Source of the DNA: a virus
Strand: one strand, 5' to 3'
Virus record (IMG/VR): IMGVR_UViG_3300049216_000094
Span: 1 to 53,277 of that record
DNA length: 53,277 bases
The notes under the pieces are model-generated. The model searched no databases. It worked only from the letters and a program-made list of their open reading frames with translations, and was not told the origin of the DNA. A program made the translations under genes and the position numbers. Shown piece after piece: positions 29,969 through 40,220 of this stretch; position 1 is the first letter of the stretch; every line of letters starts with the position of its first letter.

Positions 29969-30011
29969 TCTTGCTGTACGCGGTCGGACCTGAACACACC
30001 GGAGCGCTGAC

Positions 30012-30158
30012 ATGGACCCTATCCTGCTGATCCTGATCGTACTGCTACTCTGCGGCGGCGGCTGGGGCTTTTATGGCGGTTTCGGATTAGGCCCGATCTT
30101 GCTTATCGTCCTCATTTTCCTAGCGCTGGGTGGGCGCGGCTGGTGGGGACGGCGTTAG
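30012..30158 (+). CDS. Very small Gly-rich membrane protein (DUF3309-like)
   Basis: A 48-residue protein with two hydrophobic stretches: DPILLILIVLLLCGGGW then FGLGPILLIVLIFLALGG, ending in RGWWGRR. This resembles the small DUF3309 membrane proteins of proteobacteria. It has an ATG with a GGAGCGCTGAC leader, 43 bases after the preceding gene. Its 3' end overlaps the end of the broken leftward gene at 30112. Role unknown; an antiholin or envelope function is only a guess. Confidence 0.6.
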   Translation: MDPILLILIVLLLCGGGWGFYGGFGLGPILLIVLIFLALGGRGWWGRR

Positions 30159-30320
30159 AACTCATGGTACGCAAAGCCACAGCCAAGCCTTCGGTCGTGA
30201 TCTCATTGCCCTTGAGGTATCCGCGTTTTTGCAGCGCAAGTGCAGTCCACGTCGCGCCGCCGTGCTCTGCACGTCCGCGCAATCCGGTCGTCAGCGGCCT
30301 TCGGCATTCGTTCCGCTCAT
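30112..30320 (-). pseudogene. Frameshifted small gene at the end of the accessory block
   Basis: The ATG overlaps the upstream stop in ATGA, a normal coupled start, but the frame stops after nine codons (MSGTNAEGR, stop). The +1-shifted frame then gives a sensible sequence: PLTTGLRGRAEHGGATWTAL, then ALQKRGYLKGNEITTEGLAV, ending at 30112. Adding one C in the GGCCGC stretch near 30295 would restore a 69-residue protein starting MSGTNAEGPLTTG. It is either a real inactivating deletion or a sequencing error. Confidence 0.55.
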
Positions 30321-30520
30321 TTCGTTTCCTCGCTGGCCGCGACGCGGCTTAGCTCTGCGTTAGCACTGATTTTCGCGGCATGGAAACGTACAGCAATCTC
30401 AGCAGCCCACTCAAAGTAAAGGCCACTGGAGATGCCGCACATCGCCCATTCTGATTCGAGTCGATCGGCGATCTGCCTCAACATTTTGGCGTCTTCGGTG
30501 TCGGAATCTTCGTAGTCCAT
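30317..30520 (-). CDS. Small hypothetical protein in attC-flanked block
   Basis: A 67-residue acidic/helical protein starting at ATG 30520 after GGAG; an in-frame TTG two codons earlier is less likely. Sequence: MDYEDSDTEDAKMLRQIADR, then a CGISSGLYFEWAAEIAVRF helix. Its 3' end lies on an attC-like right arm (30330-30365), and its start sits just left of a clear attC-like site. Unknown function. Confidence 0.65.
   Translation of the reverse strand: MDYEDSDTEDAKMLRQIADRLESEWAMCGISSGLYFEWAAEIAVRFHAAKISANAELSRVAASEETK
30330..30365 (+). repeat. attC-like half site 1
   Basis: The right arm GCGGCTTAGCTCTGCGTTAG matches the right end of canonical attC sites (GGCTTAACTCAAGCGTTAG). The outer box is GTTAGCA at 30359-30365. 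The left arm is not clear; a poorly matching candidate with AATCCGGTCGTC lies near 30279-30290. Lies inside the C-terminal codons of the leftward gene 30317-30520. Confidence 0.4.
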
Positions 30521-30533
30521 TCTCAATTCTCCG

Positions 30534-30590
30534 CGCTAACAATTCATTCAACGCGACGGCTTCGCTCACGGCTTAACTCCGGCGTTAAAA
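30534..30590 (+). repeat. attC-like site 2 (57 bp)
   Basis: The left end CTAACAATTCATTCAACGCGA is nearly the canonical aadA-type attC left end, and the right end is CGGCTTAACTCCGGCGTTAA. Folding pairs ATT[C]AACGCG[A]CGG with the right arm, leaving unpaired C and A in the left arm as in standard sites. The outer boxes are GCTAAC and GTTAAAA. It lies between leftward genes 30317 and 30566, overlapping the last codons of the latter. Confidence 0.75.
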
Positions 30591-30817
30591 CTCGCCGTAT
30601 CAATTCGGAAATAGCCCGGCCGGCCGCCGCAAAAAGGACAGAAATTTATCAGTAGGCCACGGTCGCTTTGGCTTTTCTTGTAGACCACCCCGAAGAAACG
30701 AGTCTCGGCACTCGGACCAGAGTTCATCTGGATGGTGTACAGCGGCTTGAATCCTTTTCCTGTGTCAATGAGTCTGCTACCCAGCGGGTAACAACATCCG
30801 TCTTGATGGCACTTCAT
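30566..30817 (-). CDS. Small zinc-ribbon-like protein in attC-flanked block
   Basis: An 83-residue protein with two cysteine groups: CHQDGCC near the start and CPFCGGRPG near the end, a probable zinc site. The middle (FKPLYTIQMNSGPSAETRFF) is beta-rich. The last codons (NAGVKP) are encoded by the right arm of attC-like site 2. ATG at 30817 with GGAGGAA upstream. No known family recognised. Confidence 0.65.
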   Translation of the reverse strand: MKCHQDGCCYPLGSRLIDTGKGFKPLYTIQMNSGPSAETRFFGVVYKKSQSDRGLLINFCPFCGGRPGYFRIDTASFNAGVKP

Positions 30818-30823
30818 GTGTTC

Positions 30824-30847
30824 CTCCGTCCTAACTAAGCGTTGGGC
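30824..30847 (+). repeat. attC-like half site 3
   Basis: A perfect outer box GTTGGGC (30841-30847) preceded by CCGTCCTAACTAAGC, the usual right arm. It overlaps the stop of gene 30835-31179 and the leader of 30566-30817. I find no convincing left arm; GGTAACAACATCC near 30787 is a weak candidate that would make a 60-bp site. Confidence 0.45.
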
Positions 30848-31179
30848 TGCAACGGCAGCAGCGCGTGAATCGCGTTGATCGTTGCGGCCCTGTCTTCGTC
30901 CGGCACCGGCAGCGTGCGCATCGCCAGTTCCATTGCGCGCAATTCATTCGGCTCGCTCGCACCCACCAGTCCAACCAGCGCTTTGCGCAGCCTGTCGCGG
31001 TCGGCTTCGACCTCCCGCATCGGGTGCGCCTCGCACGTCTTGATATGCGCGGTCAGCACACCGTCGCCCCATGCAGGCGTGTCCTGCGGGTATTCATGGC
31101 CGCAGTAAACACAGGTCAGCACGCGCCCAACCACTTCTTCAACCGGACGGTTCTGCCGCGTCTCGTTCGCATCATTCAT
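30835..31179 (-). CDS. Zinc-finger protein in attC-flanked block
   Basis: A 114-residue protein with a C2-H-C type zinc finger: CVYCGHEYPQDTPAWGDGV, then LTAHIKTCEAHP. A coiled stretch (REVEADRDRLRKALVGLVG) follows. This architecture is frequent in small early phage proteins. The ATG lies inside the loop of attC-like site 4, so the first 18 codons are part of that site; the stop touches half site 3. Confidence 0.7.
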   Translation of the reverse strand: MNDANETRQNRPVEEVVGRVLTCVYCGHEYPQDTPAWGDGVLTAHIKTCEAHPMREVEADRDRLRKALVGLVGASEPNELRAMELAMRTLPVPDEDRAATINAIHALLPLQPNA

Positions 31180-31226
31180 CGTGGTTCTCCATGGCGGCAG
31201 AGCCGCCGGTTAAGCTGGCGTTCGGC
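31125..31226 (+). repeat. attC-like site 4 (102 bp)
   Basis: Outer boxes GCCCAAC (31125-31131) and GTTCGGC (31220-31226). Inner stem: left CTT[C]AACCGG[A]CGG then TTCTGCC; right GGCAGAGCCGCCGGTTAAG. Apart from the bracketed bases, which have no partner, pairing is almost complete over about 18 positions. The two unpaired bases C and A, six apart, are the hallmark that sets attC orientation. The long loop holds the start codon of leftward gene 30835-31179. Confidence 0.85.
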
Positions 31227-31227
31227 C

Positions 31228-31482
31228 TCATACCTGCACCACCGGCACGACACGGCAATACTTCTTCTCTGGCAAGTCGCCACGGCCAAAAGCGAGCCTG
31301 TAGTGCTCGGTGCGCTGTATCGCGGCCTTCGCGCTTACCCGATCAGCAAAAATCGCGCGTGCATCGGGCGGACTTCCCCACTGCAATATCCCCGCTGCGG
31401 GGTATTCGGGGCCACGCCGCAGCGTCAGACCTTGCTCGTATTGCTGGGCACTTTCCATCACCAAATATCCACTCGGTTTCAT
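31228..31482 (-). CDS. Hypothetical protein in attC-flanked block
   Basis: An 84-residue protein starting at ATG 31482 after GGGAGAGAAGAA. Sequence traits: KPSGYLVMESAQQYEQGLTL, RRGPEYPAAGILQWGSPPDA, a helix ARAIFADRVSAKAAIQRTEH and a C-terminal YRLAFGRGDLPEKKYCRVVP strand. The pattern recalls small phage proteins of unknown function. It fills the whole space between attC-like sites 4 and 5. Confidence 0.65.
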   Translation of the reverse strand: MKPSGYLVMESAQQYEQGLTLRRGPEYPAAGILQWGSPPDARAIFADRVSAKAAIQRTEHYRLAFGRGDLPEKKYCRVVPVVQV

Positions 31483-31500
31483 TTCTTCTCTCCCGACAAG

Positions 31501-31560
31501 GCCGAACAATTCGTTGCACTCGGACTGCCTGCGGCAGCCGGTGAACTCAAGGCGTTGGGC
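31501..31560 (+). repeat. attC-like site 5 (60 bp)
   Basis: Outer boxes GCCGAAC (31501-31507) and GTTGGGC (31554-31560), complementary at six of seven positions. The inner arms GTT[G]CAC[T]CGG[A]CTGCC and GGCAGCCGGTGAAC pair completely once the bracketed left-arm bases are left out. The AATTCGTT left spacer and the AACTCAAGGC right spacer are near-identical to classical attC sites. Separates the PAPS-reductase-like gene from gene 31228. Confidence 0.83.
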
Positions 31561-31561
31561 C

Positions 31562-32383
31562 TCACAGCGTACACACCCTGCAAGCGCCAACCTGCATGCG
31601 CTCGCGCGCCATTCGGTTGAGACTGATTGTCGGGACTCGTCCACGCTCAAACGCCGCGAACAAATCTTCGAGCGCGGTAGGCCAAGCATCGCGGCCTGGT
31701 GTTCTGTAGGTGCCGCCCATTTCCTTCTCCAGTGCAACGGCTTCCATCGCAGCAGCCCGGTGGTTCAGCCAGTATTCGTACCACTCACCGAGACGCTGGT
31801 GGTAGCAATCTCCGCAGTCAGTGCGGTCGGGGCATCGCACGCCGAACCGCGTTAGCGTCGCTTGCACGTCTCTTTCAGCGAAGCCCATGTCCCGAAGCGG
31901 GAACTTCATTTCTACGCCGTCTATGTCGCCGTACGCGCCGCCCGCTCGTCCCTCCTCGTCGGCGCGCAAACCTACATACGAAACAATAGGCCCGAGCGCA
32001 GCCTGTTCAATTAAAAACTTCCGGTACGGCTCAATCTTCAATATTCGGGTGCAGAAACGCGCCCTAAAATTGGGCAGCATTTTCTCCCGGCGAATAGTGC
32101 CGTGCAGGGTTCCCGCCATTATCGGCACAAGCCGTCGGCCAAGCCGCTCGCCGAGGCTAAGCCAGTGCGCAAACATTTCCGGCAGCTCGTTGCCCGTCGG
32201 CGTGCAAATGTAGTTGTAGGGCGTTCCCGGATTTTGCTCCCGCAGCAGCAGCGCGAGCGCCGTGCTGTCGTGTCCGCCAGACAACGCCACTACGTGTAGC
32301 ACCCCGAGTGAGTCGCGCGGGAACATCGGCCCAACCAGACGTTCAACCGGACGTGCCAGCCGTGCCACTTCACTCTTTTCCAT
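31562..32383 (-). CDS. PAPS-reductase-family PP-loop protein
   Basis: A 273-residue protein with the ATP pyrophosphatase loop SGGHDST (35-41) and a PNFRARFCTRILKIEPYRKF motif (about 104-123) typical of the PAPS reductase / adenine nucleotide alpha hydrolase superfamily. Cysteines at about 184, 190, 193, 268 and 271 (CGDC and CRVC pairs) could hold an Fe-S cluster or zinc. Phage members are of unknown substrate; relatives act in sulfate reduction or DNA phosphorothioation. It occupies one attC-flanked unit: the stop is two bases from site 5, and the start lies inside site 6. Confidence 0.82.
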   Translation of the reverse strand: MEKSEVARLARPVERLVGPMFPRDSLGVLHVVALSGGHDSTALALLLREQNPGTPYNYICTPTGNELPEMFAHWLSLGERLGRRLVPIMAGTLHGTIRREKMLPNFRARFCTRILKIEPYRKFLIEQAALGPIVSYVGLRADEEGRAGGAYGDIDGVEMKFPLRDMGFAERDVQATLTRFGVRCPDRTDCGDCYHQRLGEWYEYWLNHRAAAMEAVALEKEMGGTYRTPGRDAWPTALEDLFAAFERGRVPTISLNRMARERMQVGACRVCTL

Positions 32384-32430
32384 CGGAGTTCACCTCGCGG
32401 CTGTCACGCCGGTTAACTTGGGCGTTGGGC
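32329..32430 (+). repeat. attC-like site 6 (102 bp)
   Basis: Outer boxes GCCCAAC (32329-32335) and GTTGGGC (32424-32430) are perfectly complementary. Inner stem: left GTT[C]AACCGG[A]CG, right CGCCGGTTAAC, leaving exactly C and A unpaired. The stem continues with TGCCAGCCGTG against CGCGGCTGTCA (nine of eleven positions). Same length and left-arm sequence as site 4. Contains the start codon and leader of the PAPS-reductase-like gene in its loop. Confidence 0.88.
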
Positions 32431-32440
32431 GTGCAAGACA

Positions 32441-32782
32441 TTAGAACGGCACTCCCGTTTCTCGCCACAATTGATACTCTGGCGTCCCGATATCGTCGTA
32501 ACGGAACCCCGCAGCAAACATTTTTGAATGCACGCAACCCGGCGATCCGCGACGATGGCGCCAAGGCCGGCCGCCGCATTCGCAGTTGTATTTCACAACT
32601 TCGCGTCCCGACTCTCGGAAAAGATCGACGGTCAGCGTGCGCCGGCATAACGGGCATTGGCCCCTCCATTCTTGTATATACAAATGCGGCTTCTTTCGCG
32701 TCCTATGGCGTCGTTTGTACCCTGCGCACTTCACGTTCTGGCAACGAGAATTCACCCATGAGCGGTATCCACGATCAGCCAT
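32441..32782 (-). CDS. Cys-rich zinc-binding phage protein
   Basis: A 113-residue basic protein with three cysteine pairs: CQNVKC, CPLC and CEC, plus HRRGSPGCVH. This suggests one or two zinc ribbons and nucleic-acid binding. I start at ATG 32782, overlapping the stop of the upstream gene; the open frame extends to 32824 but those residues duplicate the neighbour. It lies outside the attC-bounded interval, just beyond site 6. Confidence 0.65.
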   Translation of the reverse strand: MADRGYRSWVNSRCQNVKCAGYKRRHRTRKKPHLYIQEWRGQCPLCRRTLTVDLFRESGREVVKYNCECGGRPWRHRRGSPGCVHSKMFAAGFRYDDIGTPEYQLWRETGVPF

Positions 32783-33032
32783 TAGCGATCTCAATTTGCC
32801 GTTTCTTTTCTTCAAGTTCACCAAAAAATTTACCAGCCTTGCCGTTGGCGTAACGTTTTTGCTGTCGATTTAACGTAGATCGATTTTTTGATGAAGCTTT
32901 CAAATGCTTTACTCGGTCAGCTTCTAATCGCGCTTCGCAAGTTTTGCATCGACGGTTTTGCGGTTTACGACCCGGCGCTTTTTCCGATACATCGGGATAA
33001 TGCTTACCGAGTTGGCAATAAAAAGTTGTCAT
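32775..33032 (-). CDS. Small zinc-finger protein
   Basis: An 85-residue basic protein: CQLGKHYPDV, then CKTC after KPQNRR, then a Lys/Arg-rich helical tail (LEADRVKHLKASSKNRSTLN). The cysteine pairs suggest a zinc finger like those of HNH-adjacent phage proteins, but no HNH motif is present. Its leader is also the tail of the terminator at 33034-33063. Confidence 0.65.
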   Translation of the reverse strand: MTTFYCQLGKHYPDVSEKAPGRKPQNRRCKTCEARLEADRVKHLKASSKNRSTLNRQQKRYANGKAGKFFGELEEKKRQIEIANG

Positions 33033-33419: not shown

Positions 33420-33822
33420 CAACTTTTAATAGTTCTCGTATTACCGGCGCCATAAGCTTTACCAACTCGCTTTGTCCGATGTCGCCTTGGCGCAAAGCGG
33501 AATACATTTTAGCGGCGACTTCTGGCAATTCTTTAGAAGCTCGCAAATACGCAACGTATGAACCGTGGAACATTCGGTAAGGCATCGTCGCATTAGCTTT
33601 TACAAGTTCACGGTAAACGTTGCCGACAAAAATCGCTTCTTGAGGGTTTGTAAAATACTCAATGCTTGGATCGAGCAACGGCGTTTCAAATTCATCGGTC
33701 AAATAGTAGCGAGCAAAAATTGGTATTCCTTTATAGAACTCGATCGGCGTACCGTCTCGGTTCGCTTTAACTGCAACAATAACTCCCGGTGCAACCGGGA
33801 AAAAATGACTGTACTCGTTCAT
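33409..33822 (-). CDS. Hypothetical protein downstream of helicase
   Basis: A 137-residue protein with a beta N-terminal part (FFPVAPGVIVAVKANRDGTP) and helical remainder (AAKMYSALRQGDIGQSELV). Unrecognised. It overlaps the helicase stop by four bases and is the last gene of the replication operon; its stop region is shared with the promoter at 33391. Confidence 0.65.
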   Translation of the reverse strand: MNEYSHFFPVAPGVIVAVKANRDGTPIEFYKGIPIFARYYLTDEFETPLLDPSIEYFTNPQEAIFVGNVYRELVKANATMPYRMFHGSYVAYLRASKELPEVAAKMYSALRQGDIGQSELVKLMAPVIRELLKVVDM

Positions 33823-35678
33823 GCGGCTTCCTGAAGAATTGCTTTAATGCGAAGTTTCATTTCGTTTTGAAATTCTTCCTGTTCGCGGTCTTTGTGGTTG
33901 ATCGCGCGCATCGCAGCTTCGTCGGCAGTTTTCTCAACGATTAAATGGTGGATAGCAACGCGATGTTGCTGGCCTTTGCGCGGTAAACGTTTATTCATCT
34001 GCAAATAATCTTCAAGATTATGTCCGGGCAAACTGAACCAAATTAAAATGTGGCCGCCAAATTGGAGGTTTAAGCCGTGAGCGGCAGAATTATGAGAAAC
34101 AAACGTTTCGCCGTTTTTATTTCTGACGACAAATCGTGAACGAGGACCGCAGTCTACTAAGTCGTATACGTCCGCTTTTTTCTCGGAAGACCCATGTTGT
34201 ACGTCGACGACCGGTAGCTCTTCACGGCTAAACAACGCACTAATACGAGCGTCATCTCCCTGGTAGGTGTACCGTGCTTTGTCTCTAGCGTCTTCAATAG
34301 TTCCAACATTTTTAGCCTCGACCCAAACGTCCGAAACAAGCATCCTGTGCTCGGGAGTCATTGTAATACCGAAAAAATCGGTAACAGTCTTGTAGCCTGA
34401 GTAGACGCAACCGGAATGGTTTACGAATTCTACGCCGTCAAACACCCGATCACAAACCGTGGTCTTAATTATAGGCTGCCAGCCTCGATGCTCGGTAAGC
34501 ACTTCCGTGTCGGCTCCTAGGCACTTCGGATGAGCGATAAGCATGCGAATTTTACCTGCGTTCCAACGGTCAATTTGTTCGCCGTCTTTACCTAACACTT
34601 CTGCATGCGGAAATGACTCAAAAATTCTCGGTATTTCATGCTTAAAATTGTACGCTAACAAAATTGGTTTGTCGGGATTATCTTCAATCAATTCTTCAAG
34701 CGCTTCGATTTTAAGTCGGTGAACAATTTTAGCTTCACGATTTTTGTCGTAGATTGCGCCACTAGCGAATTGCAGCAGCTTAACTCCTAAACCGGATGCG
34801 TTCATCGCGGTAATTTTGTCGCCGTCTGGCAAACTTAAAACGTAATCTCTTTCAAAAGATTTATAAGCTTTATGCAAGTTCTCAGGCAAAGGAATCTTAA
34901 TCGCGTTGTATAAAGGTTTTTTGATACTGTTATAGTCTTCAGGTCGCAAGACGTAAACGATATCGCTCAACAATTTCATAATTACTTTTTCGGCACCGGG
35001 CGTTGGTTTCTTTACCAACTCTTGCGTACCGTCGCCATGCGTTACGGTGACGTGCTCAAAAAATCGACGTTCAAACGCGATTATGTTCGGACCTAAGCGC
35101 TCGCCTCGGTCAAGCAAATAAATTTGATGCCAAAGGTCTTTAATGCCGTTCGGCATTGGCGTACCGGTAAGTTCGATGACGCGCCTGCATCTCATCGTCA
35201 ATAATCGCATCGACAAAGACCTTTTTGCCGACGGGTTTTTGAACCTCGGGGACTCGTCGATAATCATCGTGTCCCAGATGTGCTGACGCGCTTGAAACAA
35301 AGTCTCAAGTACGCGAACTTTGTCACACGATATCGCCCATACGTCGAAATCGTTAAGCCGGGTTTGCAGTATTTTGGCGATCTTCAAAAGTGGACCGTCG
35401 AGAAAAATAAATCGAAGGTGGCGCGCATGCGCCCAGTCTTCGATCTCGTCCGCCCAGGTTTTCTTAGCAACTCGCAAAGGTGCTACTACCAGCACTCGAT
35501 GCACCTCGAACCGATTTATGAGGTCGATCACCCCGGTAAGCGTGGCTATTGATTTTCCGCTGCCCATTTCAGCCCAAACAGCGCATTTCGGCACCCGTTC
35601 GACAAATCGAGCAATGCTCCGGGGGCCGTCTTGATAGAACTCAAGATCGCTTCGCTGTTTTATCGCGACATTGCTCAT
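33819..35678 (-). CDS. SNF2-type helicase interrupted by a mini-intein
   Basis: A 619-residue precursor. SNF2/DEAD motifs: AEMGSGKSIAT (motif I, 36-46), VVAPLRVAKKTW (Ia), IIDESPRFKNP (motif II, 139-149), ELTGTPMPN (III, 169-177), LLAYNFKHE (IV region, 340-348). Motif V is split: HPK at 383-385 and SAAHGLNLQ at 531-539 flank a 145-residue intein. Motif VI follows near MNKRLPRKGQ. After splicing the enzyme would be 474 residues. It belongs to the phage helicase family encoded next to VRR-NUC and family A polymerase genes and likely acts in phage replication or recombination. Confidence 0.9.
   Translation of the reverse strand: MSNVAIKQRSDLEFYQDGPRSIARFVERVPKCAVWAEMGSGKSIATLTGVIDLINRFEVHRVLVVAPLRVAKKTWADEIEDWAHARHLRFIFLDGPLLKIAKILQTRLNDFDVWAISCDKVRVLETLFQARQHIWDTMIIDESPRFKNPSAKRSLSMRLLTMRCRRVIELTGTPMPNGIKDLWHQIYLLDRGERLGPNIIAFERRFFEHVTVTHGDGTQELVKKPTPGAEKVIMKLLSDIVYVLRPEDYNSIKKPLYNAIKIPLPENLHKAYKSFERDYVLSLPDGDKITAMNASGLGVKLLQFASGAIYDKNREAKIVHRLKIEALEELIEDNPDKPILLAYNFKHEIPRIFESFPHAEVLGKDGEQIDRWNAGKIRMLIAHPKCLGADTEVLTEHRGWQPIIKTTVCDRVFDGVEFVNHSGCVYSGYKTVTDFFGITMTPEHRMLVSDVWVEAKNVGTIEDARDKARYTYQGDDARISALFSREELPVVDVQHGSSEKKADVYDLVDCGPRSRFVVRNKNGETFVSHNSAAHGLNLQFGGHILIWFSLPGHNLEDYLQMNKRLPRKGQQHRVAIHHLIVEKTADEAAMRAINHKDREQEEFQNEMKLRIKAILQEAA
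34089..34523 (-). other. Mini-intein in helicase motif V
   Basis: Residues 386-530 of the helicase precursor. Cys1 begins the intein (CLGADTEVLTEHRGW, block A), block B is TPEHRMLV with the conserved His, block F is VYDLVDCGPRSRFVV, block G ends in the His-Asn pair, followed by Ser+1 of the extein. At 145 residues it is a minimal Hint domain with no homing endonuclease. Removing it restores a continuous helicase motif V (HPK joined to SAAHGLNLQ). Confidence 0.92.
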
Positions 35679-35687
35679 AGTAGTTTC

Positions 35688-36035
35688 TTAAAACGCCTCG
35701 AAATCGATAATTGACTTGCCTTGATTGATGCTGTCCACAACGTAGACGCGAAAACCGCGTTCGGTAAGAAAGGCGTGTTCTATAAGCTGATTGTGCGTAG
35801 GCTTTTCACCGCGGCGCTTGAACTCGATAAAAAAGACTGCTCCCGAACCTGGATACAGTATTCGGTCTGGCGCACCGCGGCGTTGCGGGGTCGTGTACTT
35901 TCGATGTGCAACGCCACACTGAACAGCGTACTTGCAAACTTTTGCTTCAATCTCTTTTTCAAGCGGGTTGTTTTTTCTAACAAGATTAAGTTCAAGCGGT
36001 CCATCGCTATTCCTTTTTGTAGAACGAACTTTCAT
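35688..36035 (-). CDS. VRR-NUC nuclease
   Basis: A 115-residue VRR-NUC domain protein: NNPLEKEIEAKVCKYAVQCG, then RRGAPDRILYPGSG, FFIEFKRRGEKPTHNQ with the catalytic E-x-K, and a VYVVDSI end. This is a small PD-(D/E)XK nuclease, stand-alone in phages, often next to SNF2-like helicases and probably a structure-specific resolvase. Its N-terminus overlaps the polymerase 3' end by 29 bases. Confidence 0.9.
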   Translation of the reverse strand: MKVRSTKRNSDGPLELNLVRKNNPLEKEIEAKVCKYAVQCGVAHRKYTTPQRRGAPDRILYPGSGAVFFIEFKRRGEKPTHNQLIEHAFLTERGFRVYVVDSINQGKSIIDFEAF

Positions 36036-38049
36036 AACCTTCAGCCCCTAACGGTATGTCGCGTGACCATTTATCTTTAATGCACATTAACTCGATCAGC
36101 TTTTGTAAATTATACACTTGATCGGTGTCGCGTGTTAACGCAACAATTTCATCGTGAACATGAAAAACAATTTCAAAACCGAATTTGTCTGCTGCTAACA
36201 TTCCGTAAGCGAGAATGTCTCGCGCAATCGCTTGGCATAGATTTTCATAAATTTTCCCCGGATGTGTAGCAACTCGACAATATTGTCCCGCTTTATTTTT
36301 TCCGATATAACTAACTGCGAGTTTTGTAAAAGACCCTTTAACGTGTTTAATCGTATGCATCTTCACTTGCGGATTCAGGTAACAAATATACCTACCGCTA
36401 GGAAGTTTCAGCCGCAAAAATGGCGCTTGATAACTAAACTCAAAATGCCCCACTCGCGTTAATTGCCTGGACTGCACGCATTCGATCATCGCGTCTTCAA
36501 GCTTTTTCCACATTTCCGGCACTTCAAAATATTTGCTGCGAAACTTAGCGATAAACTGCTTTGAATCCGCTTCTTTAATTTTGACTCCCATACTGGCCGC
36601 GTAACCCATTAGCCCCGTCAAAATGACGTCGGGGTACTTACCTACTCGCGTACCGCCGCCAAGCATGTAGAAACCGCCTAACACAGGCGGCTTAGCAACT
36701 CCACGTTGCTCTGAGGTCACTGCGTCGTAAGGGACGCCAAAGATCACTGAAGCGAAATCCCGGTAAGCATCTTTACCGTCTCTTATAAGCTTCAACAAAG
36801 CGCTCACATCTGACATCCAGGCTGACACGCAAGTCTCGATCGACTTCAGGTCGCTCACTACAAAATGCCGGCCTTCGGGCGCTCGAATACAACTCCGGAT
36901 AACCGCTGACAAAGTTTCAATTGGACAACCGTGTCGCTCTTTCAGCGCGACGTAATTGTTGTCGCGGATTAACTCAATGATCTCCGGCAAAACTTTCTTC
37001 CGTACGCGATCAATGCGCTTCAAATTGTGCCATTGAACGCCTCGGCCGGCCCACCGCATCGTTCGCCCAGCGCCGCCCATCTGAAACGAATACCTTACTC
37101 GGTCGCCCGCGCCTACGCGATCGACGATGGCGTTGTATTTGGTCACAGAGGTCTTGCTGCTAGACTGGCGCGCCTTGAGCACGGCAATACAGTCTTCCGT
37201 CATCGCCAGTTCAAAATCTTCCAGCGCTAACTGAATGCGCTCTTTTTGAAGATTCTGAAACGGATAGCCCCGCGCCCTAAGCCAAGGCAGCAACTGCGAC
37301 ACACTGTTCGGGTTCGCTAGCTGAGTGAGGCGCGCCATTTCGTTAAACAGTTCGGCGCGACGGCGTTTTACGATTGAAATAGCGTTGTGGACAAATACCA
37401 TATCCACAGGCACGCCGCGGTCATTGATCTTCTGGTCCAACGCATAGATGCTCCATTCTATCGCCGGCACGCTGTACTTTGATAAGAGCTTCCTAATATA
37501 GCGTTCGCTCACTACATCTTGTCGGCAATACTCTCGAAACTCCTCCCACTCTTTTGGGTGCGTATATCGCGTATTGCGTGTGGCCGGATTGCGCTTAGTC
37601 GGTTTTTGGTATGAAGTAAAAAACCGAATCAACTGCTTGCCGCGCGCGTCCTTCTGGTGCTCGTCGCGCAGCTTCATCAACTTACCGGTGGTCTCTAAGC
37701 TCGGGTCAAGCGACACCAGCGTTGCCAAAACAGCGGTACAGCGCCATTGTTCAATCGGAGTATCTAATAACAGTGCGTCTCGGAAAAACACACGCTCAAA
37801 TTGCGCGTTCCATGCGTGCTTTACGATATTCGGATTCAACAATAAAGCTCGCAGCTTTGCGGGCATCGGCTCAAGGTCCGGCTCCCAAATCTCAACGTGC
37901 TCGTCGTCCAGCGCCCATCCCAACATCAATACCTGTGCGTCCGGGTGGCTGACGTACCGATCCAGGCCTTGCGTTTTCAGGTTCGCGCCTGAAAACGTTT
38001 CAAAATCGAGCGAAAGGTCGCCGCGCGCAAGCGTTGCATAGTTAATCAT
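36007..38049 (-). CDS. Family A DNA polymerase
   Basis: A 680-residue polymerase. It has a 3'-5' exonuclease domain (LSLDFETFSG with Asp15 and Glu17), then polymerase motif A VVSDLKSIETCVSAWM, motif B EQRGVAKPPVLGGFYMLGGG and motif C HVHDEIVAL. The order and the LGGFYML variant match the polymerases of phages with the VRR-NUC, DUF2800 and Enc34-type module. It carries out phage replication. Confidence 0.95.
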   Translation of the reverse strand: MINYATLARGDLSLDFETFSGANLKTQGLDRYVSHPDAQVLMLGWALDDEHVEIWEPDLEPMPAKLRALLLNPNIVKHAWNAQFERVFFRDALLLDTPIEQWRCTAVLATLVSLDPSLETTGKLMKLRDEHQKDARGKQLIRFFTSYQKPTKRNPATRNTRYTHPKEWEEFREYCRQDVVSERYIRKLLSKYSVPAIEWSIYALDQKINDRGVPVDMVFVHNAISIVKRRRAELFNEMARLTQLANPNSVSQLLPWLRARGYPFQNLQKERIQLALEDFELAMTEDCIAVLKARQSSSKTSVTKYNAIVDRVGAGDRVRYSFQMGGAGRTMRWAGRGVQWHNLKRIDRVRKKVLPEIIELIRDNNYVALKERHGCPIETLSAVIRSCIRAPEGRHFVVSDLKSIETCVSAWMSDVSALLKLIRDGKDAYRDFASVIFGVPYDAVTSEQRGVAKPPVLGGFYMLGGGTRVGKYPDVILTGLMGYAASMGVKIKEADSKQFIAKFRSKYFEVPEMWKKLEDAMIECVQSRQLTRVGHFEFSYQAPFLRLKLPSGRYICYLNPQVKMHTIKHVKGSFTKLAVSYIGKNKAGQYCRVATHPGKIYENLCQAIARDILAYGMLAADKFGFEIVFHVHDEIVALTRDTDQVYNLQKLIELMCIKDKWSRDIPLGAEGYESSFYKKE

Positions 38050-38091
38050 GGAAATTCGAGCAACGATAACGCGCGGCGAACAACAAACTTA

Positions 38092-38751
38092 CTAAGGAAT
38101 GTCGTCGAAGCCGTCGTCTTCTAAACTTTCGGACGCGCCTGCATTGGCGGTATCGTCTTCATCTTCGCTCTCGAAAATGTCTTCGATGTTCGGTCGGCTC
38201 ATGTTGCCGAAAGCTTCGTCGTCTTTGTGGAATTGGACTGCAAGAAAGTTAGCGTTGACTCGCATTCCATAGCCCGAAGCCTTACCTTGAAACCAAGGCC
38301 GGATCAGGATGTGCGCATGGCAGCCTGCGTAGATAACGCCATCGTCTTCAGTCAAAGGTGTTCGACCGTCTTTGCCCACAACGGTCGGACGAGTGCTTTC
38401 CCGCGCACTGACAACCCAATGGCCCATGCTTTCGGGTTTGGTCTGATCGGCTTTGCGAATGAACAGCTTTTCATCTGGCAGTTCGGCCTCTTTGTTTTTC
38501 AACTCGGTTTTTAGCATCTTCCGAGCAAAATTACGAAGAACCTTAATGTCTTCTTCTCGTGTTTCTTTATGCAACAAACCCTGCGTACTAAATGCCGGCA
38601 CAGGTTCTTTGGTGTCGCTCGGTTTACGCGGTGGCGCGTACTTCTTAAAAACGTGCGGGTAGGAAAGCCGAACGTCTTTAATCTTGATCGTGCCGTCGCT
38701 ATACAGAATACACGTTTTTGTTCCGCCTACAACAGTCGCTTTTTCAGCCAT
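38092..38751 (-). CDS. Single-stranded DNA-binding protein, Enc34-type (DUF2815)
   Basis: A 219-residue protein of the family founded on the Enterobacter phage Enc34 ssDNA-binding protein: DVRLSYPHVFKKYAPP, a GVIYAGCHAHILIRPWFQG strand pair and GYGMRVNANFLAVQFHKDDEAFG, with an acidic C-terminal tail (ESEDEDDTANAGASESLEDD). The acidic tail is typical of SSBs and recruits partners. It lies between polymerase and the Cas4-like nuclease. Confidence 0.88.
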   Translation of the reverse strand: MAEKATVVGGTKTCILYSDGTIKIKDVRLSYPHVFKKYAPPRKPSDTKEPVPAFSTQGLLHKETREEDIKVLRNFARKMLKTELKNKEAELPDEKLFIRKADQTKPESMGHWVVSARESTRPTVVGKDGRTPLTEDDGVIYAGCHAHILIRPWFQGKASGYGMRVNANFLAVQFHKDDEAFGNMSRPNIEDIFESEDEDDTANAGASESLEDDGFDDIP

Positions 38752-38808
38752 GTCGAAATACTCCGATATACGATAGATAGGAATGAGGGCGTCGCCCTCG
38801 ATTCGAGC

Positions 38809-39990
38809 TTAGTCTTCAACGTAAAAAGCTTCGTCGCTTTCGTCGTCGAACACGTCGGCCCGGTGCTGCCCGTACTCAGGTCTGGGGTCAGACATGGGTA
38901 CGATTGTTGGCTTGCCAACCGGTTTAACGATTGCCTCGCCAAGAATTTTACGCTGTGATTTTTTAACCAGCTTTTCCGCTTGGGCGGGTGTAATCAACTT
39001 CTGGTTTGTCGTGGCCTTCGCGGGAATGCCTGCCGCGAGCATTGCTTGCCGTGCCTCCTCGACGCTGCGCCAACGACGATGCGACGTGCCCTCGACCAGC
39101 TTCAACCCAACGTCAACGCCTGATCTCATTAAGCGTTCGACTTCTTCTTCGACCGCCTTAATACGAATGCGCAGTAAGTCCGCGGTTTGGTAGGCCGATA
39201 ACAGGTCTTCGCGCGACAAATCTTCAAGCGCGTAAATAAAATCTTCGCGCCAATCGTCCATCTTATAAGCGTTTTCCGCGTCAATACGGGCGCGGTTTGC
39301 TTTACACGTCAAGTTAACCGCGCAGAACTTGCACGCCGCGTCGGAGGGCGCGAACTCCGGGTCGCGGTCCTGCGATAACATCAATCGCATCTTGATCCAT
39401 GAACCTAGTTCCAACAACTCGTCAATCGTGGTTTCCCAAACATCGAAATGTCCGAGTGTCGGCTGCGCGATGCGTAAGGTAAACGTCTTTACGCTAAACA
39501 GCCAATTCCACTCTAGCCACCAGCCTAAAGCATACAAAACTAACTGTATGTTCTTAAACGCGAGCACTTTCAAACCGCCAAACTTATAATCAGTGACTGT
39601 CGCATGTCCGATGCGCGCGACCACGTTATCGCAAGTTCCAAATGACGGCCCCGGGCACCACGGCGTAACATCGACTTTCGTTTCGGCGAACATCTCGCCT
39701 GGCGACTCGCGCACCCAGTCCAAACACTGCTGAATCTGGTCGGCCACAGGCTCATCCACCGTCAGAACGTGCGGCTTGCCTTCAACGGTAAAAGTATGTT
39801 CAACGCCTAGCAACGAATCAGCGTCAACTTTCGTATTGACGCACAGATCGACCAGCGCGTGCTTCACGGTGCCCAGTTCAGAAGCGTAGGACTCGCGCGA
39901 TCCAGCGGCCCAGTTGATCTCGACCGACGCGGGGCAGAGTACGCCGCGCGCTGCGGACGACGGGGAAAACTTGGAATGCGAACCGGACAT
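38809..39990 (-). CDS. DUF2800 (Cas4/RecB-like) nuclease
   Basis: A 393-residue PD-(D/E)XK protein of the DUF2800 family. It has an N-terminal cysteine (RGVLCPASVEIN), a SELGTVKHALVD helix, the ATVTDYKFGGLKV motif with the catalytic D-x-K, and a C-terminal cysteine cluster (CKFCAVNLTCK) that with the N-terminal Cys could bind a 4Fe-4S cluster as in Cas4. I start at ATG 39990, sharing a base with the upstream TAA; the longer frame overlaps that gene. Likely a recombination exonuclease. Confidence 0.88.
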   Translation of the reverse strand: MSGSHSKFSPSSAARGVLCPASVEINWAAGSRESYASELGTVKHALVDLCVNTKVDADSLLGVEHTFTVEGKPHVLTVDEPVADQIQQCLDWVRESPGEMFAETKVDVTPWCPGPSFGTCDNVVARIGHATVTDYKFGGLKVLAFKNIQLVLYALGWWLEWNWLFSVKTFTLRIAQPTLGHFDVWETTIDELLELGSWIKMRLMLSQDRDPEFAPSDAACKFCAVNLTCKANRARIDAENAYKMDDWREDFIYALEDLSREDLLSAYQTADLLRIRIKAVEEEVERLMRSGVDVGLKLVEGTSHRRWRSVEEARQAMLAAGIPAKATTNQKLITPAQAEKLVKKSQRKILGEAIVKPVGKPTIVPMSDPRPEYGQHRADVFDDESDEAFYVED

Positions 39991-40220
39991 TAAGCAACTC
40001 TCAAATGCCGTTCTAAGGGGACTGGAATTACAGTCATACCCCACAATTTTATTTCCTCACCCAAAACACTGCGCCCGCGTTTAGCTGACAAAATAATACT
40101 AAGACGCTCTAGTTCGTGCATTCCTAGATAAAGAAACTCAGCCGGCTTTTTCATTTTACGAGCGTAATACAAAGCTTCGTTATTGATAACCGCTTCTAAG
40201 GTAGATAGAGATTCGGGCAT
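39990..40220 (-). CDS. Small hypothetical protein, replication operon
   Basis: A 76-residue helical protein (MPESLSTLEAVINNEALYYA, KKPAEFLYLGMHELERLSII) ending in a basic LERHLRVA. Its stop and the DUF2800 start share one base (TAATG). It is the first gene after the terminator at 40231-40292 in the leftward direction. Unrecognised. Confidence 0.65.
   Translation of the reverse strand: MPESLSTLEAVINNEALYYARKMKKPAEFLYLGMHELERLSIILSAKRGRSVLGEEIKLWGMTVIPVPLERHLRVA

Follow-up and report, generated by a model that had tools for sequence, protein, structure and literature searches.

A phage attC array with cassette genes antiparallel to their recombination sites, and its recurrence among phages

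In a canonical integron cassette the gene lies on the top strand of its attC site, with the stop codon beside R''. In the window analysed here (the whole of an IMG/VR virus record, 53,277 bp), five genes associated with attC sites all lie on the opposite strand. The locus therefore raises the questions of whether the sites are genuine attC sites, whether the reversal extends to other phages, and what might favour it.

Recombination sites and genes of the array

The window encodes a contractile-tailed phage. Its + strand carries, as far as ~29.6 kb, the portal, tail sheath, tape measure, baseplate hub and endolysin genes, and a DNA-metabolism operon (SNF2-type helicase, DNA polymerase, exonuclease; 33819-40044) occupies the - strand. 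The cassette array sits between these two converging gene blocks (+ strand to the left, - strand to the right), and its genes run in the same direction as the operon. An initial annotation had equated this direction with that of early transcription; co-direction with the neighbouring phage operon was confirmed, and the region may be transcribed early, as the - strand genes for DNA polymerase, helicase and exonuclease suggest. No family was matched in an Rfam scan of the window, and megablast of the array region against phage records gave no match.

Sites were searched for with a covariance model (R1) built from 26 bacterial and no phage attC sites, with the R''-L''-loop-L'-R' structure written by hand. 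Exactly four attC sites were detected in the 53-kb window (E 2.8e-7 to 2.9e-4), and the top strand of each is the + strand; the next-best match had an E of ~0.9. The best preserved was attC 4 (32329-32430, +; 36.2 bits, E 2.8e-7), which has a perfect 7-bp R''/R', and attC 2 (31125-31226, +; 25.4 bits, E 2.9e-4) has a long loop. These two ranked first in the window in a structural scan made without the consensus (<0.2 equal hits expected per 53 kb), and folded far better than shuffled sequences (z -3.4 and -3.1, respectively). Both carry two single-base bulges (C and A) in the left arm of the + strand, corresponding to G and T on the bottom strand, which is the canonical polarity. The unpaired bases had been assigned to this arm in the initial annotation, and this was borne out by model and folding, which put both bulges there and not on the other strand. 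In attC 3 (31501-31560, +; 27.4 bits, E 8e-5) only the inner stem folds (z -1.3), while attC 1 (30534-30590, +; 35.3 bits, E 5e-7) looks decayed, the sequence being conserved and the pairing lost (z -0.5).

Two right-half attC remnants on the + strand, recognised by sequence and below the reach of R1, were located at 30344-30365 (L'-R', GCGGCTTAGCTCTG-CGTTAGCA; no matching left half was found) and at 30827-30847 (CGTCCTAACTAAGCGTTGGGC), and mark older junctions. Several attC sites of the window are decayed, and recombination at these may be over. The sites are best kept near the phage operon and most decayed at the far left end, which hints at a direction of growth. A small hydrophobic + strand ORF (30012-30160) has its stop within a GTTAGAA core-like box, possibly a further array boundary.

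A CALIN comprises two or more attC sites on the same strand, which form bottom-strand hairpins with extrahelical bases and complementary R''/R', and lacks a nearby integron integrase. The window holds four sites, all on the + strand, the hairpin being complete at 31125-31226 and 32329-32430, partial at 31501 and decayed at 30534, and the whole record gave 0 matches to the integron integrase family TIGR02249. It is not a complete integron (intI, attI and Pc), the record having no intI. To read the hairpins not as recombination sites but as terminators, or as RNA structures with a regulatory role ahead of phage genes, is very improbable: they do lie 5' of each gene, and 30534-30590 has no attC fold, but this reading is contradicted by the scores of the bacterial attC model, which reach ~86 bits in reversed phage arrays, and by the canonical bulges, the R boxes and the homology breakpoints at the GTT crossover (see below).

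Genes were called by a home-made codon-score method, supported by Shine-Dalgarno (SD) signatures and protein families. Five consecutive cassette genes were found, all on the - strand as initially annotated, with scores of 3.8-25.4 and an SD-like site before each. The leftmost (30317-30520, -; 67 aa, score 14.9 with SD) has its start codon 13 nt to the left of R'' of attC 1 and runs through the left remnant, and the next (30566-30817, -; 83 aa) has the weak coding score of 3.8, an SD GGAGG before its ATG and a stop inside attC 1. A CxxC protein of 114 aa (30835-31179, -; gene call) is translated from a start within the attC 2 loop. The fourth gene (31228-31482, -; 84 aa, with SD) stops 1 nt past R' of attC 2 and starts 18 nt from R'' of attC 3, and the fifth (31562-32383, -; 273 aa) stops 1 nt past R' of attC 3 and starts in the loop of attC 4. 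The product of the latter is PAPS-reductase-like (PHROG 424, E 2.3e-27; PF01507; relatives at 47-71%), which makes the strand of this gene certain. The gene that adjoins the array on its R' side (32441-32824, -; PHROG 17384, E 6e-4) has the same direction as the cassettes and stops 10 nt from R'. Starts therefore adjoin or lie within their own attC, as had been claimed (at distances of 13 and 18 nt from R'' in two cases, inside the hairpin loop in two others). The accompanying statement that every stop abuts the outer GTT box holds only approximately: three stops fall 1, 1 and 10 nt past R', but those of the genes at 30566 and 30835 overlap a site and the gene at 30317 reads through a remnant. 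The limits first given for the region (30566-32383) were too narrow, since the gene at 30317-30520 and both remnants belong to it.

The left arm of attC in 31125-31226 and 32329-32430 encodes an N-terminal motif, RPVE(R/E)(L/V)VG, in two otherwise unrelated proteins. Alignment of the PAPS reductase to its relatives begins only past the attC-encoded N-terminal stretch, and no attC was found near these relatives in 17 viral contigs, so the gene also exists outside cassettes.

Gene and attC orientation in viral and bacterial arrays

Viral contigs (IMG/VR) and bacterial genome loci were collected by the same attC seed pattern; the seeds of the survey came mostly from a single attC family, with a few others added. 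Tabulation of gene against attC strand, as proposed in the initial annotation, gave 149 reversed and 28 forward viral cassettes (same attC type, deduplicated), on 47 and 14 contigs, respectively. Out of 327 cassettes called in the bacterial loci, 28 were reversed and 299 (~91%) forward, with a contig ratio of 5:92 (viral versus bacterial contig orientation, Fisher P = 7e-22). Only one contig, from a bacterial isolate, was of mixed orientation, and no phage array was mixed; the agreement of all units first noted in the window thus holds in other phages too. Independently of the gene caller, a start with SD was present left of R'' at 134/162 reversed viral, 3/34 forward viral and 26/436 bacterial sites, the bacterial rate being equal to that of shuffled sequence, and the start lay 0-40 nt from R'' in 142/164. 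Stops provided by the TTA of the GTTA core (53/143 reversed genes) were dropped as evidence, one frame in three being expected by chance. The sites of the window are attC sites with the + strand as top strand and the genes are reversed, and this layout is found again in many unrelated phages and prophages, and only rarely in bacterial arrays.

The reversed contigs represent many phage types, with genes for Mu-like transposase, DNA polymerase, terminase, portal, tail, helicase and tyrosine integrase, and no integron integrase above the curated cut-off was found in the 47 phage records. That the viral contigs are misassigned bacterial integrons is hardly credible. IMG/VR does include bacterial flanks, and several forward viral contigs resemble bacterial chromosome beside a prophage (L060/L063, L021, L084 and L086 look bacterial); however, it is the reversed contigs that have phage structural and replication genes and lack IntI, and the bacterial-looking ones are forward. 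Reversal is not universal, because phage TJE1 has forward cassettes, in attC sites parallel to the operon, and phage genes are also present on a few of the forward viral contigs (L067, L107, L112). Among viral contigs with VCR-type attC, the Vibrio cases examined (L250, L251) were forward, as in chromosomal integrons. A scan for the attC type of the window gave two contigs, of which L248 was reversed and L247 too short to use. The isolated lytic Polaribacter phage P12002L (L246:29248-30957) is reversed, having an attC at 30005-30059 with the + strand as top strand and methyltransferase genes on the - strand. A probable second attC of this phage lies at ~30869-30957, also with the + strand as top strand.

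Both orientations were also encountered within a single bacterial genome. In this proteobacterial MAG (G002), the IntI-linked array (L257) is mainly forward and the two arrays flanked by phage genes are both reversed (L259, beside primase, antirepressor and terminase; L260, beside a RecE-like exonuclease). The third array of this MAG that lacks IntI (L258, at a contig end) contains three or more reversed genes, with no phage gene identified nearby. In a Pseudothauera genome that also encodes IntI, a reversed cassette lies within a prophage, together with portal and head protease genes. IntI was detected in each of the two bacterial genomes that have reversed arrays.

CALINs in temperate and lytic phages are already known, and five of six tested attC sites were recombined by IntI1 (Qi et al. 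2023, PMC9892861); attC2 of P12002L is active with IntI1 (Qi et al. 2023, PMC9892861). The arrays of TJE1 and PH101 were described as having typical bacterial structure, and for P12002L only divergent attC sites were reported (PMC9892861). The arrays described here are like those phage CALINs in having attC clusters without integrase and DNA methyltransferase cargo, but neither systematic reversal of gene and attC nor phage-phage cassette exchange is described in that paper. No published account of systematic reversal was found in the open-access literature (subscription papers and bioRxiv preprints lay largely outside the search), and it is apparently unreported in the literature searched. 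Compared with sedentary chromosomal integrons and CALINs of Xanthomonadales and allied bacteria, the attC family, cassette geometry and crossover are alike, whereas the genes of the bacterial arrays are forward (299/327), IntI and attI are nearby, and expression is Pc-driven. In the reversed cassettes of bacterial integrons (toxin-antitoxin; symE in Xanthomonas, PMC12444791) the gene is likewise antiparallel to attC, but these are isolated in forward arrays and outside Pc control, whereas in the phages whole arrays are reversed and operon-fed. Toxin-antitoxin cassettes carry their own promoters (PMC11023631).

Operon context, shared cassettes and possible origins of reversal

Upstream of the reversed cassettes, on the R' side, the genes were co-directional in 39 and opposed in 3 of 42 arrays, the other side being mixed, which points to phage operons gaining cassettes in their distal portion, as in the window. 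The initial annotation had suggested selection for expression driven by the phage rather than from an integron promoter; since orientation, agreement of units and operon co-direction hold here and elsewhere, this is plausible, but it does not by itself predict reversal. Co-direction explains expression and not the antiparallel attC, because forward genes with parallel attC sites are equally readable, as in TJE1, and something further must favour the antiparallel arrangement of gene and attC in phages. We regard it as unlikely that co-directional expression alone accounts for the layout, a founder attC having by chance faced against the operon, so that cassettes were of use only if their genes were reversed. 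The 39:3 ratio with the R'-side operon and the absence of mixed phage arrays fit this account. On it, however, phages with forward genes in parallel attC sites, supplied from a pool some ten times larger, should be about equally common, against the 47 reversed and 14 forward contigs observed, several of the forward ones apparently being bacterial flanks.

Cassettes were found in common between phage contigs. L031 and L043 have 373 bp in common (97%), the ends in L043 being -3/+2 nt from GTT crossovers, L079 and L091 have ~414 bp in common (93%), with ends -1/-4 nt from GTT crossovers, and further phage contig pairs have the right boundary in common. Judging from these boundaries, single-cassette homology ending at the GTT crossover in unrelated phages is probably a trace of IntI-mediated cassette exchange, and these breakpoints lend support to attC sites of this kind being IntI substrates. 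A chimeric cassette was seen in L044 versus L046 and L068, in which attC, leader and first residues (MEQGYYS..ATPREA) are common and the gene body is different. The cargo is phage-like, with 8 DNA methylases, 3 Mom, dNTP (dATP/dGTP) pyrophosphohydrolases and PAPS reductase. Among the 327 bacterial cassette proteins no homologs of phage cassettes were found, except one prophage copy. Two phage cassette proteins sought in 369 genomes of one bacterial class were each found in one genome, the close match (92%) in a reversed array and the other, a distant relative (41%), without attC.

A serious rival explanation is a founder effect propagated through exchange, although on balance we doubt it: the reversed pool would have arisen once and spread among phages sharing hosts, for historical reasons and without any mechanical advantage. 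Cassettes common to unrelated phages agree with it, as does the lack of homologs among bacterial cassette proteins outside the one prophage. It is weakened by P12002L, which has a different host phylum and a different attC and is reversed too, and by the divergent attC type of the window and L248, again reversed.

We consider it probable that the window holds a phage-borne CALIN of reversed architecture, each gene being antiparallel to its own attC, with cassettes recruited or exchanged via host IntI and expressed from the operon. Phages would recruit and exchange cassettes using the integron integrase of the host, new cassettes would join a co-directional phage operon at its distal end, and their expression would come from read-through. 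Two further forces may maintain the layout. Reversal would make the recombinogenic bottom strand of attC the sense strand of the operon, which may more often be single-stranded. In bacteria, cassette recombination is raised when the bottom strand is on the lagging template (PMC5371416, PMC11023631); GC skew does not tell replication bias from coding bias. In addition, reversed cassettes would be silent behind Pc, and forward host cassettes antisense or silent in the phage, so that the two pools would be kept apart. Tentatively, and with slightly less than even confidence, we suggest that phages have a cassette economy of their own, in which reversed cassettes pass from phage to phage via host integrases, and the orientation insulates the pools and promotes recombination, the recombinogenic strand being the sense strand.

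Implications for phage and integron biology

Cassettes are usually treated as a bacterial resource read from Pc, and their reversal in phages represents a second use, with no integrase, no Pc and expression from an operon. The findings point to phages swapping anti-restriction genes (methylases, Mom) cassette by cassette via host enzymes. The effect of attC orientation on recombination and expression, a long-standing question, becomes testable in natural arrays, and P12002L, as an isolated lytic phage, is suited to such bench work.
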